From an uncultured Alphaproteobacteria bacterium (GTDB lineage: Bacteria > Pseudomonadota > Alphaproteobacteria > CAAGCB01 > CAG-977), in contig CALYBD010000023.1 in the NCBI GenBank assembly GCA_944393745.1, forward strand, positions 1 to 40,668: DNA of 40,668 nucleotides, given 5' to 3'. Under the pieces are notes generated by a model. It was not told the DNA's origin. It saw only the letters and a program-made list of their open reading frames with translations, and searched no databases. Position 1 is the stretch's first letter, and each line of letters starts with the position of its first letter. Below are positions 5,161 through 12,491 of this stretch, piece after piece. The position numbers and the translations under genes are program-made.

Positions 5161-5886
5161 ATGTCTTTTGAATTTTTACCGATTCACACCCGTTTGGTTC
5201 GTCCGCCGCAGGACGATATTTTTGATATTCTGGATTCTCTGCCCGCCCTGCAGGAAAAGGATATCCTTTTTATTACCTCAAAAATCCTGGGCATTCATCA
5301 GGGACGCTGCGTGCCCTGCGCCGGCACGGATAAATCGGAACTGATCAAACGGGAAGCCGATCGCTACTTGTCCTATACTCACCCCGGCGGTTTTAACGTC
5401 AATCTGACGGTAACGGACAATGTCCTGATCCCGGCAGCAGGCATAGATGCCAGCAACGCCGACGGTTATTATGTCATGTGGCCGAAACAAACCGACAAGC
5501 TGTGCGCCGAAATCAGGACTTTTCTGTGCCGCAAGCATAAACTGAAAGACTTGGGCGTTGTTTCAACCGACAGCCATACAACACCTTTGCGTTACGGCGT
5601 CACGGGCATTGCAACCGGTCTGGCCGGAATAGAACCGTTAAAAGATCTGCGCGGACAAAAGGATCTGTTCGGCCGCGAATTGGCCTTGACGCAAGTTGAT
5701 CAGGTTGACGCTTTGGCAGCCATGGCCGTTTTGTTGATGGGCGAATCCGATGAATGCACGCCGATCGTGTTGTTGCGGGGGTGGGATAAAATTGTTTTTA
5801 ACGAAAACGGATCCATGCAGGACTTTAAAATCAGTCCGCAAGATGACCTGTACACGCCTTTATTATCGGTGATGCAATGCAAATAA
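5161..5886 (+). CDS. CofE-like (coenzyme F420-0:L-glutamate ligase family) amide ligase
   Basis: This 241-residue protein belongs to the CofE/COG1478 family, which adds glutamate to a cofactor tail with nucleotide triphosphate. Family signatures are the N-terminal strand-helix DILFITSKILGIHQGRCV (34-51), AGIDASNADG (93-102), the STDSHTTPLRYG segment (135-146; CofE proteins have a D-S/T-x-G-R-P-x-R version) and DLFGRELALTQVDQVDALAA (168-187). No other F420 gene is in the window and F420 is rare in Alphaproteobacteria, so F420 is an unlikely substrate. The next gene overlaps by 10 bp and encodes a DHFR/RibD-type reductase, so a pteridine or folate substrate is a reasonable inference: a COG1478 member in Chlamydia has been proposed as an alternative folylglutamate synthase. 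Family call firm, substrate open. Confidence 0.8.
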   Translation: MSFEFLPIHTRLVRPPQDDIFDILDSLPALQEKDILFITSKILGIHQGRCVPCAGTDKSELIKREADRYLSYTHPGGFNVNLTVTDNVLIPAAGIDASNADGYYVMWPKQTDKLCAEIRTFLCRKHKLKDLGVVSTDSHTTPLRYGVTGIATGLAGIEPLKDLRGQKDLFGRELALTQVDQVDALAAMAVLLMGESDECTPIVLLRGWDKIVFNENGSMQDFKISPQDDLYTPLLSVMQCK

Positions 5887-6383
5887 CGCTTTTTGCCGCC
5901 ATATCCGCAAACGGATTTATCGCTGATGAAAACGGAAACGGTGACTTTTCCAGTCCCGAAGATAAAAATCATCTGCGCTCCTTTTTAAACAGCAAAGCGT
6001 GCGACTGTTTTATCTGCGGACGCAAAACGGCCGAAGAATTTCAGGATCGGTTAAGCTCTAAACCGTTGTTGATTTTGACACACCAAAAAAAAGAAAACAC
6101 GGACAACAGAATCTATTTTTCGACATTGGATGAACTGGATCGTATTTTAAAGGCAAAAAATCTGTCTGATCCGACCCTTTTGGGCGGGGCGGAGACTTAT
6201 TCGTTTTTTTTGGAAAACGGATATGTCGACCGGATTGTTCTGACAACGGAAAACGTTCGGTTTAATGCCGGGAAAAGTTTGGATCTGCAGCGTTTTAGAA
6301 ATGACTTCTTTTTTAAAAAAAGAAGCCGACTGTCCGAAAAAACAACCGTGTCTTTTTATCAAAGAAAAAAACCCCGAAAATAA
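5877..6383 (+). CDS. Dihydrofolate reductase / RibD C-terminal family reductase
   Basis: The 168-residue, single-domain protein has the DHFR-like fold pattern. It starts with the strand MQITLFAAISANGFIADENG, followed by CDCFICGRKTAEEF, then the NADPH-binding turn TLLGGAETYSFFLENGYVDR and the strand RIVLTTENV. This pattern occurs in both FolA-like and RibD_C-like reductases; the ISANGFIA start resembles the RibD_C branch more than classical FolA. It overlaps the CofE-like gene by 10 bp and so is co-translated with it. The two may act on the same pterin or flavin-type compound. The TAA stop lies in the loop of a bidirectional terminator. Whether it reduces dihydrofolate or a ribosylaminopyrimidine cannot be decided from sequence alone. 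Confidence 0.78.
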   Translation: MQITLFAAISANGFIADENGNGDFSSPEDKNHLRSFLNSKACDCFICGRKTAEEFQDRLSSKPLLILTHQKKENTDNRIYFSTLDELDRILKAKNLSDPTLLGGAETYSFFLENGYVDRIVLTTENVRFNAGKSLDLQRFRNDFFFKKRSRLSEKTTVSFYQRKKPRK

Positions 6384-6391
6384 TCGGGGCT
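6371..6391. terminator. Bidirectional intrinsic terminator
   Basis: CCCCGA (6372-6377) pairs with TCGGGG (6384-6389). On the plus strand the stem is followed by CTTTTTGTTTT, and on the minus strand by TTTTTTTCTTT, so it can end both the reductase operon and the autotransporter gene. The reductase stop codon occupies the loop. Confidence 0.8.
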
Positions 6392-6398
6392 TTTTGTT

Positions 6399-9300
6399 TT
6401 AAAATGAGTATCTGAACACGGCCGTCAGCGTATGTGATGTATAATCGGGTCGCCATTCCAGATTGTAACCGGCGGAAATGTCCACGTGTTCGCCCAGCAG
6501 GTAAGCAACGGAAGCCCCCAATTCAACGCCCAGCGGATCAAAATCATCGCCTTTGACCGTATAGACGCTGCCGTTGGGCAGATTGACAACGGCATCTTCG
6601 CTTGAAGAAGTCAGATCATACGTCAAAGCGCCCGAAAATTCACTGTGCCATAAAGAGTTATTCTTTTGCGCAAAGTCGTAATTAAAACGAGTTTCGGCAA
6701 CAAACGTCAGAACGTTTGTCGAAATGCTTGAAATATCCTGTCCGATTTCGTCCTGATGCGCATCACGATCGGCGGTAACATACCGCAATCCGACAGCCGG
6801 CGTCCATTTTTCCAGATCTTTTCCGAACATCACCGAAGCCCCGAAAGACGATCCGTCATAGGAATCCGAAAGTATCATGCCGGATAAGTCTTTGTCTTCT
6901 TCATAGGTTAACGAAGTCATGTTCAAAACTGTGCTGACAAACCAATCGGCGGGTTTGTACATACCGTACAGGAAAAACGAATCCCCGGTAACGTCTGTTT
7001 CGCGCTGCAACGTATCCAACGATGTCGTTGTCGAAGCATACCCAATTCCGACGGCAAAGACATCAAACAGCAACGCATCGGCACCAAAAGCAAAACCGTT
7101 CGTATCACCGGAAAATCCGTCCGGTTCGTCGGCAGACAGATAATCCGCGGTATTATAGAACGTTTGCGCCCACATACCGAATTCTTTGGGCTGCGTATAG
7201 TTGGTTTCCCTTTTTGCCCATCTTCTGCGTTCGGTTGTGACTTCGGCTGCCTCCGGACTGCGGGGATCGACACGACGGCGATAGGCCGGACGCGGTCTGG
7301 GCACAGGACGATCATCCTGATCATAATATCCGGCACGGCGATAATAATCCTGCGCCCGCATGAAACGAGAACGATACGGAGATCCGCCCGAACGACCGTA
7401 CATTTTCTGGATTTCCCGGTATGTTCTGGACGAACTGCCCATAGACCCCATCAGACCGTTCAAACGCGCGGACAACGTGTTTGAGATTTTAGACTGCAAC
7501 GCAATCGGCTGGCGTGTCATCGCGCCGGTAACGTCCGGAGCAACAGCCGTCAACGCGTTCAGATATGCTCCTGATCGGCCTGTTCTTTGAGATAAAGCGT
7601 CCAGATGTTCGGCAACATCAAAAATCTTGGTACCGTATTCAAACAGTTCCCCGTCCAGAAAAGCTTCTGCCGTGCCGATTTGATTTTGATTTCCTTTTTC
7701 TTCCTCGGCTACCTGTCCGCCGGTGGACGTCTGAACCAAACGGTAACATAATCCGCTGCCGTTTGTACAGGTTGCGGGCGTTAGTGAATAGCGGTTATTC
7801 TCAAAATTAAACTTTCTGACAACTTCGCCTTCAACCAACTGGAAAACAGATCCTTCTTCTGCCGTCTGCACGCCGTAATCAATTGTCAGATCCAATTTGA
7901 CGTTATTGTTGATAATCAATGTACCGCCGTTCAGAATCAGCCTGCCGTATCCCGTATTGTTGACATTCCCCAGTTCATCGGTTGCTTCCCGAGAAATACG
8001 CATAACGAAATTTGAATTATCATTAAACGTAAAATCACCGACATCAATCGTTAACGCATTGACGTCTATATCCAATGTCCCGCCGGCAGACACATCACCG
8101 TTTGCCAAACTTGCGTCATTTCCGAAAGCAGCCGTTCCCGCCCCGATATGCAAAGCCCCCATATCGGCCGTATCGTTAAAATATACGGATCCGGCATTCG
8201 AAATCTTCAGCGAATTGATTGTCGCCGCCAGATTAAATTCCGCTCTGCCGTCTGCAATCAGAACTTCGTCAATTTCAGCTTGGCCTTCAAACACGGCTGA
8301 AGCCGAATTTAAAATCAATGACGTAAAGTCCGTTTCGGACAAAAACCTCAAAGAACCGTTACCGGCACTGATAACACCTTGGAATTTTTGCGCATTTTCG
8401 AATGTTGCTCCGGCCTGGCCTTCCAGCTGCAACTGGGAATTCTGTGCACCGGTCAGTTTTCCGATCCCTGAAAAATCGGATTCAACGGCAACCGTTACGC
8501 CGTCCGAAATATTAATGGTTCCTTCGACCGAAGAATACTTTAACGATCCGATTTGAGAATCACCGACAAAATCCAAAACACCGGTGCCGATCGTTACGCC
8601 GGCCAGACGTCTTGTTCCTTCGGGGATAGTGGTGGACAATTCCACATTACCCGATCCGGCAATCAGGAAACCTTCGCCGAACACGGCACCGATTTCGCTG
8701 CCGCCTTGGGTAATATGCGTTACATTGATTGTCTTGCCGGGGGCTATTTCTATATGACCGCCATCATTAAAGGCCAATGTCCCGATACTGATATCATTTG
8801 CGAATTTTGCATCACCGCCGGAAACCTTCAGCGTTCCCAGATAAGAAATCGGCGCATTAAATTCCGACCCTGTCTCTTTCAGATTCAAAGTACCGTTCCC
8901 GGTAATTTGATTTGTCCCTTTGGTTATAATTGAACCGACCGTTAACGTTTTTCCGTCCGCAATATTCAGAACCCCGCCGTTGCCGTCGGCAAAATCAATT
9001 GCCCCGATTTCCGCATCTGTCTGAATATGTGCCGTTCCCGTACCGATTTTGATCAATCCGTTAAAAGCGTCTCTCATTGCAAATATGCCGGAAGAATTGC
9101 CGCTTAACAGTAAAGTTCCCGCTCCCGTCAGCCGGTTGTTTTCGTTTACCGTAATGTTATTTGTAATCGTCAGTACGGGTGAACCGGCAGGACTGTTCGA
9201 ATTTTCGCCGATTTGCAGCGTGCCTCCGTTTTCATCAAAGACAACCGATGACAACACCGTATCGGCCGTTAAATGCAATGTCCCGGCAATATCCGCCTGA

Positions 9301-12300
9301 TTAGCCGACCCGCCCGCGAAATTTAATGTTGCTCCGTTTGTAACGGAAATCGTCCCTTTAAGAGTCGAAGCCAACATTGTCGTTGACGTACCTGAAGCAG
9401 AAGAAAGATTGTTTAAATTATTCAAAAAACCGTTCACAGTGACATTTCCGGCCAGCTCTAACGTTCCGTCCCCCGTAATAACGGAAGATACCGTGCTGCC
9501 CAGAGTATTGGAAGAAACTTTTAAAGCCGCGCCGGTTCCGATGACCAGTTGCGCGTTATCCTCCAAAATCAGTCCGTCTTTATTCTCTCCGACGCCCGTT
9601 GACGTATTGATGATATACGCCGTTGCTCCGTTTTGAACCGTTAAATTAGTCAGCCCCTTTAAATCAGAAGCAAATGATCCCGAAGCTCCGGTTCCGGACA
9701 GAATCAATTTTGTTCCGCCGATGCTGTTGCCGGCGCCAACGGTGATGTTTCCGGTTACAGTTGTAGTGTCTGATAAATTCAATGTTCCGGCATCGTCAGA
9801 ATTAAACGAAACATTGCCTATGGTCGCCCCGTAAATATTAACCGTTCCCGACCCGATTTTTAAATTCGCCAAAGACTGAGAGTCGGAGTTTTTAAATGTA
9901 CCGTCTGTTTTTAAAAACAATGTGCCCGTTCCGTAAACGGCTGTATCATTTTTACCGAAAACATCACCAACGGCCAAAATTCCGTTATTAATAACGACAT
10001 TTGCCCCTGAACCGTTTATGGTAAATTTATCAATCTGCGATTCACCGGCGTAATTAAATGTAATCGTTCCGTTTGCGGCGCCAAAATTCAAAGCGCCCAA
10101 ATTCACCAAACCGCCGAAAACGGATCCGTTTCCGCTAATCAGGTTCAAAGTACCTTCACCCTGAACAATATTTCCAGCATTTGTTATAATATTGCATGTT
10201 GCATTCTCGCAACCGTCGGACTGATCGCTTAACTGCAGAGTTGCCTTCGCGTCAATCTGCAAAACACCGCCTTTGGTTGAACTGAATTCAATACTGCCCA
10301 ATCTTGTGACCGAATCACCGGTAATCGTTGCCGTTCCCGTACCGATTTTCAAACCGCCCAACCACTGAAAATTACCGGACGAACCGCCGCTGAAACTGAT
10401 GCTGGTATTATTTAATAATTCCAACGTTCCTTTGCCGCTAATTCCGCCGGATCCCGAAATGACGTCACCGGCCATTCCGCCCTTTGCATCCAGAGCCAGC
10501 GTCCCGCCTTCTTGAATATCAATATTTCCCAAATCATTGTTTTCAAACTTTAAAATATTAACTGTCAGCACACTGCTGCCAATCTCTAAAGTTGTTTTAT
10601 TATTGCCGGTAAAAATCAACGTCCCGATTGTATCGGTCCTGTTCTGAGACGTCAGTCCCGCATACTCAACAGTGACGGCATTTTCTGATCCGTCAAGGAC
10701 AACCGTTCCGAAATTATCAAACTGCCCGTTAAACGTTAACTTATTCGTCACCCGCAGCGTTCCCGTTCCGCTCAGCTTGCTCCAGACCGAAGAAGTGCCG
10801 TTGATGGTTCCCTCACCGACCTGCAATGTTCCGTTAACATTTAATTGCGAACCAAAATACGTCGTTAAATTATCTGCGTTTAAAGAGGCGCCTTCGGCAA
10901 TATTCAATGTGCCGATGGCTTCACTGGCATTTCCCAAATATACCGCTTTAAAATCCGAATTTCCCGCATTGAAATTAACCGCTGACCGAATAACCGTCAG
11001 ATTATTCAGATCCACCCCCTGGGAGGTATTAAAATCAATTTGCGCCCCGGTTTGTGCTTCAACGGATAAATTTGGGCTGCTTAATCTGGTCGATTCATAC
11101 CCGGCCTCATCATCAAAAGTCATCAAAGATCCGGCGGCATACAGCTTTCCTTCCGATGATGTGACGACAAACTTAGATGTATTTTTAATACTGGCGTCTT
11201 CTGCCAACGTTAAAGAGGCATCATCAGATGAATACGTAATCGTTGATCCGGAAAAAAGCAGACTGTTGACATGCAGAGCCGCATAAATATTCATTGAAGC
11301 CCCGTTCGTCAAACTGACGGATTCCGCGTTAACCGAAGAATTAATGGTAATGCTCCCGCCATTAGCCTCTAATCCGGTCAGCAGGGTATTTCCTGAAAAA
11401 ATTGCATTGCCGCCGTGAACCTTAATCGTACCGAAGTCCAGTTCGAAAAAGGTCGCATTGGCGCTATCCGTTAAATCCAAAATCCCCGCCCCGGTTAATT
11501 TTGTTCCATTGGACATTTTAAAGTCTTCTTTAACCGTCAGCGTGCTGCCCGATTGAATATCAAGCGTTCCGGATCCGGAACCGAACGTAAAATAATTAAC
11601 CGTGGACGATGCCGCCAGCCTCATTGCCCCGCCGGCCAGATCCAACGTTCCTGTTTCCCAATTAATTCCCGAAGAAATCGTTATTGTCGGTGAAGAGGTG
11701 TCTTCTCCTAAAAAGCTGATTGTTCCTTCTCCCGAAAAAGTAAACGGCGTATATGCCCCTTGCTCAAAAGAAATACTGCTGCCTTTAAACAACAAGGTGC
11801 TGCCTGATGCAATATTATATTGCCCGCCGGAAATTGTCAGAGCTTGATTACGTTCAGCCGAACCGATTGTTGCCGTAACGGATGAGCTGACATTAAAGAT
11901 GCCGTTTCGAACATATATTGAACCGGTTCCGTTTTTCAGCATTAAAATTTCACCGTTTTTTTTGGAAAAATTAAACGTTCCGTAATTGATAATCAAATCC
12001 CCCGATGAAACAAACGATTGCGCTGTTCCTTTTCCGTCTTTTGAAACTACAACCGTATCTGCGGAAAATCCTTTGTATATTTGTATCCCGTTAGTTGTGC
12101 TATCATTAAATGTCCCGTTATCTATCGTCAGATTTCCGAAATATCCCCCTTCTACATAAGAAGGGGTAACCTTTGTACCGTCGACGTCTATTAGATTGAC
12201 CGTCTCACCTTCACCCAGTTCGCCTTCCAAATAACTGGCAAAATCCCATATCTTGCCGGCATTGCCCGTGCCGTTAAAATTCAATACCGTATCGCCGTTG

Positions 12301-12491
12301 ATCTGACTGATCGTTATGCCACCGTTTCCGCCCTGATAAAAACCGTCATTAATACTATACGTCTGATCCGTAAATCCGATCACCTGCCCCGGTTTTCCGT
12401 TTTCGGGAGTATTTGGTGTCTGCGCCGAAACCGATGATGACCAAAATGTCAAAGCTGTCGTTAAAAACAATAATTTTTTTAAATGTCCCAT
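6399..12491 (-). CDS. Giant classical (type Va) autotransporter, beta-solenoid passenger and C-terminal barrel
   Basis: The 2030-residue protein starts with a Sec signal (MGHLKKLLFLTTALTF, cut near SVSA-QT, about residue 23). The passenger (about 24-1690) is Gly/Thr/Asn/Ser-rich and almost Cys-free, with recurring G-x-GTL-x-L and IG-x-GTA motifs typical of a right-handed beta-solenoid. An arginine-rich linker (about 1700-1760) with PRPRPAYRRR precedes an autotransporter barrel (about 1760-2030), which starts near EFGMWAQTFYN and ends in AVFRYSF, the terminal aromatic needed for BAM insertion. No protease triad or known enzyme domain was recognised in the passenger, so adhesion or self-association is the likeliest role, by inference. 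One Cys pair sits near ATCNII, another near TCTNGSGLCY. It is monocistronic, with a promoter at 12506-12534 and a terminator at 6371-6391. Confidence 0.93.
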   Translation of the reverse strand: MGHLKKLLFLTTALTFWSSSVSAQTPNTPENGKPGQVIGFTDQTYSINDGFYQGGNGGITISQINGDTVLNFNGTGNAGKIWDFASYLEGELGEGETVNLIDVDGTKVTPSYVEGGYFGNLTIDNGTFNDSTTNGIQIYKGFSADTVVVSKDGKGTAQSFVSSGDLIINYGTFNFSKKNGEILMLKNGTGSIYVRNGIFNVSSSVTATIGSAERNQALTISGGQYNIASGSTLLFKGSSISFEQGAYTPFTFSGEGTISFLGEDTSSPTITISSGINWETGTLDLAGGAMRLAASSTVNYFTFGSGSGTLDIQSGSTLTVKEDFKMSNGTKLTGAGILDLTDSANATFFELDFGTIKVHGGNAIFSGNTLLTGLEANGGSITINSSVNAESVSLTNGASMNIYAALHVNSLLFSGSTITYSSDDASLTLAEDASIKNTSKFVVTSSEGKLYAAGSLMTFDDEAGYESTRLSSPNLSVEAQTGAQIDFNTSQGVDLNNLTVIRSAVNFNAGNSDFKAVYLGNASEAIGTLNIAEGASLNADNLTTYFGSQLNVNGTLQVGEGTINGTSSVWSKLSGTGTLRVTNKLTFNGQFDNFGTVVLDGSENAVTVEYAGLTSQNRTDTIGTLIFTGNNKTTLEIGSSVLTVNILKFENNDLGNIDIQEGGTLALDAKGGMAGDVISGSGGISGKGTLELLNNTSISFSGGSSGNFQWLGGLKIGTGTATITGDSVTRLGSIEFSSTKGGVLQIDAKATLQLSDQSDGCENATCNIITNAGNIVQGEGTLNLISGNGSVFGGLVNLGALNFGAANGTITFNYAGESQIDKFTINGSGANVVINNGILAVGDVFGKNDTAVYGTGTLFLKTDGTFKNSDSQSLANLKIGSGTVNIYGATIGNVSFNSDDAGTLNLSDTTTVTGNITVGAGNSIGGTKLILSGTGASGSFASDLKGLTNLTVQNGATAYIINTSTGVGENKDGLILEDNAQLVIGTGAALKVSSNTLGSTVSSVITGDGTLELAGNVTVNGFLNNLNNLSSASGTSTTMLASTLKGTISVTNGATLNFAGGSANQADIAGTLHLTADTVLSSVVFDENGGTLQIGENSNSPAGSPVLTITNNITVNENNRLTGAGTLLLSGNSSGIFAMRDAFNGLIKIGTGTAHIQTDAEIGAIDFADGNGGVLNIADGKTLTVGSIITKGTNQITGNGTLNLKETGSEFNAPISYLGTLKVSGGDAKFANDISIGTLAFNDGGHIEIAPGKTINVTHITQGGSEIGAVFGEGFLIAGSGNVELSTTIPEGTRRLAGVTIGTGVLDFVGDSQIGSLKYSSVEGTINISDGVTVAVESDFSGIGKLTGAQNSQLQLEGQAGATFENAQKFQGVISAGNGSLRFLSETDFTSLILNSASAVFEGQAEIDEVLIADGRAEFNLAATINSLKISNAGSVYFNDTADMGALHIGAGTAAFGNDASLANGDVSAGGTLDIDVNALTIDVGDFTFNDNSNFVMRISREATDELGNVNNTGYGRLILNGGTLIINNNVKLDLTIDYGVQTAEEGSVFQLVEGEVVRKFNFENNRYSLTPATCTNGSGLCYRLVQTSTGGQVAEEEKGNQNQIGTAEAFLDGELFEYGTKIFDVAEHLDALSQRTGRSGAYLNALTAVAPDVTGAMTRQPIALQSKISNTLSARLNGLMGSMGSSSRTYREIQKMYGRSGGSPYRSRFMRAQDYYRRAGYYDQDDRPVPRPRPAYRRRVDPRSPEAAEVTTERRRWAKRETNYTQPKEFGMWAQTFYNTADYLSADEPDGFSGDTNGFAFGADALLFDVFAVGIGYASTTTSLDTLQRETDVTGDSFFLYGMYKPADWFVSTVLNMTSLTYEEDKDLSGMILSDSYDGSSFGASVMFGKDLEKWTPAVGLRYVTADRDAHQDEIGQDISSISTNVLTFVAETRFNYDFAQKNNSLWHSEFSGALTYDLTSSSEDAVVNLPNGSVYTVKGDDFDPLGVELGASVAYLLGEHVDISAGYNLEWRPDYTSHTLTAVFRYSF
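8400..10460 (-). repeat. Imperfect long-period protein repeats in the autotransporter passenger
   Basis: About eight to nine diverged units of roughly 75-115 residues each open with a motif like ISGKGTLELL, VQGEGTLNLI, VYGTGTLFLK, ITGDGTLELA, LTGAGTLLLS or ITGNGTLNLK. Midway through many units there is an LKIGTGTATI-like motif (also LKIGSGTVNI, IKIGTGTAHI, VTIGTGVLDF). The limits are approximate. The DNA itself is not visibly repeated, so the units are old. Confidence 0.65.

Follow-up and report, generated by a model that had tools for sequence, protein, structure and literature searches.

What does a CofE-like gamma-glutamyl ligase do in a bacterium without an F420 pathway, when its gene overlaps that of a small reductase? 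The locus that raises this question lies in a window of 40,668 nucleotides, which is contig C23 of a 2.25-Mb alphaproteobacterial genome that is 99% complete (G000). The relatives considered here are Alphaproteobacteria MAGs from rumen, horse faeces and other sources. The original prediction described a ligase with AGIDASN and FGREL motifs whose gene has a 10-bp overlap with that of a DHFR-fold reductase, and the open reading frames, motifs and Pfam matches agree with this description:

5161..5886, forward strand: FolC2-type (COG1478/PF01996) gamma-glutamyl ligase, 241 aa, proposed dihydrofolate/folylpolyglutamate synthase in FolC's stead
5437..5457, forward strand: AGIDASN motif of the ligase, common to CofE, read from the sequence
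5569..5592, forward strand: DSHTTPLR, ligase residues 137-144, from an alignment with CofEs
5668..5682, forward strand: FGREL motif of the ligase, common to CofE (YGREL in A. fulgidus), from sequence comparison
5877..5886, forward strand: 10-bp reading-frame overlap of ligase and partner, from the ORF coordinates
5877..6383, forward strand: partner, T. maritima-type dihydrofolate reductase, 168 aa, from profile and predicted structure
5961..5963, forward strand: partner residue Asp29, which falls on the catalytic acid position of T. maritima DHFR (Asp27)
6366..6395, no strand assigned: terminator-like bidirectional hairpin (a pattern match only), common to the pair and a convergent autotransporter gene

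The ligase and DHFR frames also overlap in most relatives that retain the pair, and the 10-bp overlap suggests that the two genes are translationally coupled. The DHFR stop codon falls within the hairpin. The convergent gene (6399-12491) encodes a 2030-aa autotransporter-like repeat protein; several congeners also have a homologue downstream of their pair.

The alternative folylpolyglutamate synthase of Chlamydia, which the original prediction mentioned as a proposal, has in fact been published with complementation data: De Crecy-Lagard et al. (2007; PMC1971073) predicted, and then showed in an E. coli folC mutant, that CT611, a COG1478 member termed 'folC2', can complement the loss of FolC. 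Organisms with CT611-type proteins possess folK/folP and lack folC and the other cof genes, and folate activity in the family has been shown only for Chlamydia CT611 (PMC1971073). We use folC2 in this sense; the name has also been given to the second folC of Lactobacillus, which is a different thing (PMC5061717).

The folate gene content of the window's genome is incomplete in a similar manner. No canonical folC was found above the cut-off in this 99% complete genome or in any folC2-bearing genome of the order, and the weak FolC matches in the window's genome correspond to a MurE-MurF fusion, MurC and MurD. The fusion is a single 942-aa protein encoded on another contig (G000:C2, L116 933-3761), and most relatives have similar ORFs of about 950 aa. 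FolK and FolP are present in one fused protein, whose gene is not adjacent to that of the ligase, ThyX is present, and a DHFR_1 search of the genome returned the partner as its sole match. The original prediction had proposed the absence of folC and folA as the way to decide between a pair that glutamylates and reduces folate and one that makes another glutamylated pterin or flavin. With canonical folC missing, the partner the sole DHFR-family match, and folK-folP and thyX present, the folate option is favoured, and the other is not needed to explain this gene content. Although the substrate of the ligase is deduced from gene content, it seems highly improbable that the pair makes some other glutamylated cofactor of pterin or flavin type: a genome with FolK-FolP and ThyX would then have no folate-glutamylating enzyme, folC and folC2 would not be expected to exclude each other as described below, and the Chlamydia homologue complements folC (PMC1971073). 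We give equally little credence to the idea that the product of the pair is a reduced, glutamylated pterin different from ordinary folate, with an unrecognised enzyme glutamylating the latter. We thus conclude that the pair very probably carries out the last steps of tetrahydrofolate synthesis, replacing the missing Mur-type FolC and classical FolA.

The family assignment of the ligase is consistent with this folate role. The protein matches the Pfam F420_ligase model PF01996 (E 2.5e-35, 122 bits; cut-off 25), but among NCBIfam models it scores best with TIGR04132 (213 bits), the 'putative folate metabolism gamma-glutamate ligase' family (intra_fol_E_lig), against 125 (TIGR01916), 121 and 92 bits for the CofE models. 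Since 213 bits lies below the curated TIGR04132 cut-off of 350 bits, which every FolC2-like relative tested also misses, we class the ligase as a divergent FolC2 relative; its TIGR01916 score of 125 bits is likewise below the cut-off of 180.65. FolC2-like proteins from seven relatives, in the order and in other lineages, obtained 178-231 bits with TIGR04132 versus 105-140 bits with the CofE models. Two CofEs from other Pseudomonadota showed the reverse (64-73 versus 231-241 bits) and passed TIGR01916. Of the COG1478 phylogeny suggested in the original prediction, the CofE side was covered, and there the ligase stands apart: the tree splits 27 FolC2-like rows from three CofEs at 100/99 support, in an alignment to which the A. 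fulgidus CofE was added, from which a misaligned row was removed and which holds no Chlamydia or Wolbachia sequences. A tree from an automatic alignment, which had a misaligned third row and placed two CofEs inside termite Saccharibacteria, was discarded once the careful alignment had separated CofE cleanly.

The fold of the ligase is that of CofE. Apart from CofE structures, led by 2phn (Z 25.4 over 226 residues), the PDB has no match to its AF2 model (pLDDT 88), the next unrelated entry reaching Z 3.6. The A. fulgidus CofE (2g9i/2phn/7uld) has the same fold over these 226 residues, with 29% identity, and has the AGIDASN, FGREL/YGREL and LLMGE motifs in common with the ligase. Within AGIDASN, residues G94, I95, D96, S98 and N99 are invariant (n=27 homologues). 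CofE differs in the loop that corresponds to DSHTTPLR, which reads D-x-x-G-R-x-[FW]-R in 3/3 CofEs, whereas P142-L143 of the DSHTxPLR-like loop is invariant in 27/27 FolC2-like sequences; from this comparison, the loop may set the substrate of the ligase. Canonical FolC (TIGR01499), which has the Mur-ligase fold and is not encoded in the genome, is unrelated to the ligase in fold, and the reaction proposed for the two is the same.

The common fold and the AGIDASN/FGREL motifs could also be read as those of an ordinary CofE. However, the host appears to lack the F420 pathway, as the original prediction had stated: CofD (PF01933) was found in 0/12 genomes (the window's genome and 11 relatives), with control genomes positive in 10/14 cases. 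Moreover, a RibD_C search of the window's genome matched the partner only, so that the host would not be expected to make the deazaflavin from which F420 is built, and without CofD and RibD a deazaflavin substrate is excluded in practice. Together with the scores well below the CofE model cut-offs, where true CofEs pass TIGR01916, and the separate clade at 100/99, these observations lead us to reject an F420 role for the ligase in practice, and we consider it to have next to no chance of being correct. The same RibD_C search gave zero matches in nine relatives. The lack of RibD apart from the DHFR partner suggests riboflavin auxotrophy or an unrecognised reductase.

The partner had been called 'DHFR/RibD-type', and our analysis retains the first half of this label: the protein appears to be a DHFR proper, nearest to that of T. 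maritima, and not RibD-like. By Pfam, RibD_C (6.2e-8, 33.1 bits; cut-off 24.1) is marginally better than DHFR_1 PF00186 (9.7e-8, 32.3 bits; cut-off 25), which would fit a RibD-type reductase of the riboflavin pathway. Yet a profile of 11 partner proteins retrieved T. maritima DHFR (1cz3) first, over its full length and with E 9.6e-28, followed by other DHFR-family entries. For the AF2 model of the partner (pLDDT 91), 50/50 VIA-align matches listed were DHFRs, the best again 1cz3 (Z 19.9); RibD is not among these 50 matches, which is no proof of difference. Asp29, at the position where E. coli DHFR has Asp27 and a catalytic Asp or Glu is expected, is invariant (n=11 homologues). In 30 genomes searched with the partner profile, strong matches (E below 1e-50) occurred in 11, directly beside folC2 in 11/11. 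Considering also that the genome has no other RibD, a riboflavin-pathway role is very unlikely, and we rejected it on the RibD_C distribution, the profile match and the structure comparison. T. maritima DHFR (1cz3/1d1g) resembles the partner in the full-length profile match, the Z of 19.9 and an SSxED segment with the catalytic Asp; it differs in that identity is 22% and in that the partner gene, unlike that of T. maritima, overlaps folC2. In other CPR bacteria, DHFR genes have been shown to rescue E. coli delta-folA (PMC11974145).

The distribution of these genes across the order supports a substitution of one synthase by another. In 12 genomes, folK/folP were found in eight, and exactly one of folC or folC2 in 8/8 of these. 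Seven carry folC2 and no folC; the eighth, G001, has a canonical folC beside accD and lacks folC2. Two genomes (G008, G009) are devoid of folK/folP, folC and folC2 altogether. Two others (G003, G004) have folC2 and lack folK/folP, and there the ligase would act on salvaged folate only; G003 lacks the DHFR partner as well. G010 is without the partner and has a classical folA elsewhere in its genome. In G011, folK-folP and folC2 are present, but we found no DHFR-family match and no ThyX. It could thus be argued from G003 and G004, and from the many FolC2-bearing relatives of 0.6-1.1 Mb that likely live by salvage, that the ligase is a folylpolyglutamate synthase only, acting on salvaged folates, with no role as a de novo dihydrofolate synthase. 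We regard this as unlikely, since seven genomes with folK-folP, the window's and those of six relatives, would then be left with nothing that can attach the first glutamate.

The pair itself is recurrent. The two genes are adjacent, and mostly overlap, in 6/7 genomes of the genus, and five genomes from distant lineages have the pair as well. This argues that the pairing is not due to chance. The distant cases come from 18 further folC2-bearing genomes (Saccharibacteria, Parcubacteria, Uhrbacteria, Falkowbacteria, termite-gut Bacillota, Rickettsiales and Alphaproteobacteria), where ligase and DHFR genes are adjacent in 5/18 and canonical folC above the cut-off is present in 0/18, a test that is weaker on its own as these genomes are mostly small and of unstated completeness. 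Saccharibacteria have ligases with 59-65% identity to the one in the window. Of 398 genomes drawn from the phylum of the window's genome, only 5 gave any match; the remaining four matches are weak and, where a family was found, CofE. This identity and this rarity suggest that the ligase gene was transferred laterally. In three termite Saccharibacteria loci, a gene for a Vut_1 queuosine-precursor/vitamin transporter lies just upstream of folC2 (L048 7310-8050, L051 7267-7998 and L052 7244-7951, with TIGR00697 above its cut-off in L052); it is possibly involved in pterin or deazaguanine uptake. In a termite-gut MAG labelled Bacillota (L050 1525-2642), folC2 shares its end with an overlapping GTP cyclohydrolase II gene, after which comes QueH. 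This cyclohydrolase could take the place of FolE in making pterins, or its role could lie in deazaguanine metabolism.

Based on gene content, homology, fold, conserved catalytic positions and the exclusion of folC, the following activities may be proposed. The fused FolK-FolP would supply dihydropteroate upstream of the pair. The ligase would then add glutamate to dihydropteroate as a dihydrofolate synthase and/or extend the gamma-glutamyl tail of folate as a folylpolyglutamate synthase, presumably using GTP like CofE. The partner DHFR would turn dihydrofolate into tetrahydrofolate and, downstream, ThyX would make dTMP and free tetrahydrofolate. Because tetrahydrofolate is released by ThyX, a modest DHFR activity should suffice.

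The system closest to the ligase is CT611 of C. trachomatis, likewise a CofE-family protein in a host with folK/folP and without folC or cof genes, linked to folate genes and with TIGR04132 as its best-scoring family. The ligase differs in its 213 bits (below 350), in its location away from folK-folP and in its pairing with a T. maritima-type DHFR. The hosts differ as well, Chlamydia on one side and gut/rumen Alphaproteobacteria and Patescibacteria on the other. Since the function of CT611 was shown in 2007, we interpret the ligase as a divergent case of a known substitution and not as the sign of a new cofactor. What is new here, judging from sequence comparison, is most likely the divergent ligase, its recurrent DHFR partner and the new hosts. 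In a literature search largely outside subscription journals, we found no paper on a ligase-DHFR pair in gut Alphaproteobacteria or Saccharibacteria, and none tying folC to Saccharibacteria.

Our results would extend the substitution of a folate enzyme by a CofE relative to rumen/gut Alphaproteobacteria, Saccharibacteria and other Patescibacteria. Annotation would label such a ligase as an F420 ligase and its host as folate-incomplete, and a PF01996 match alone is unsafe evidence for F420. The ligase-DHFR pair, repeated in unrelated lineages, offers candidates for two missing folate steps, and this may matter for calls of folate auxotrophy and for antifolate targets in CPR bacteria.
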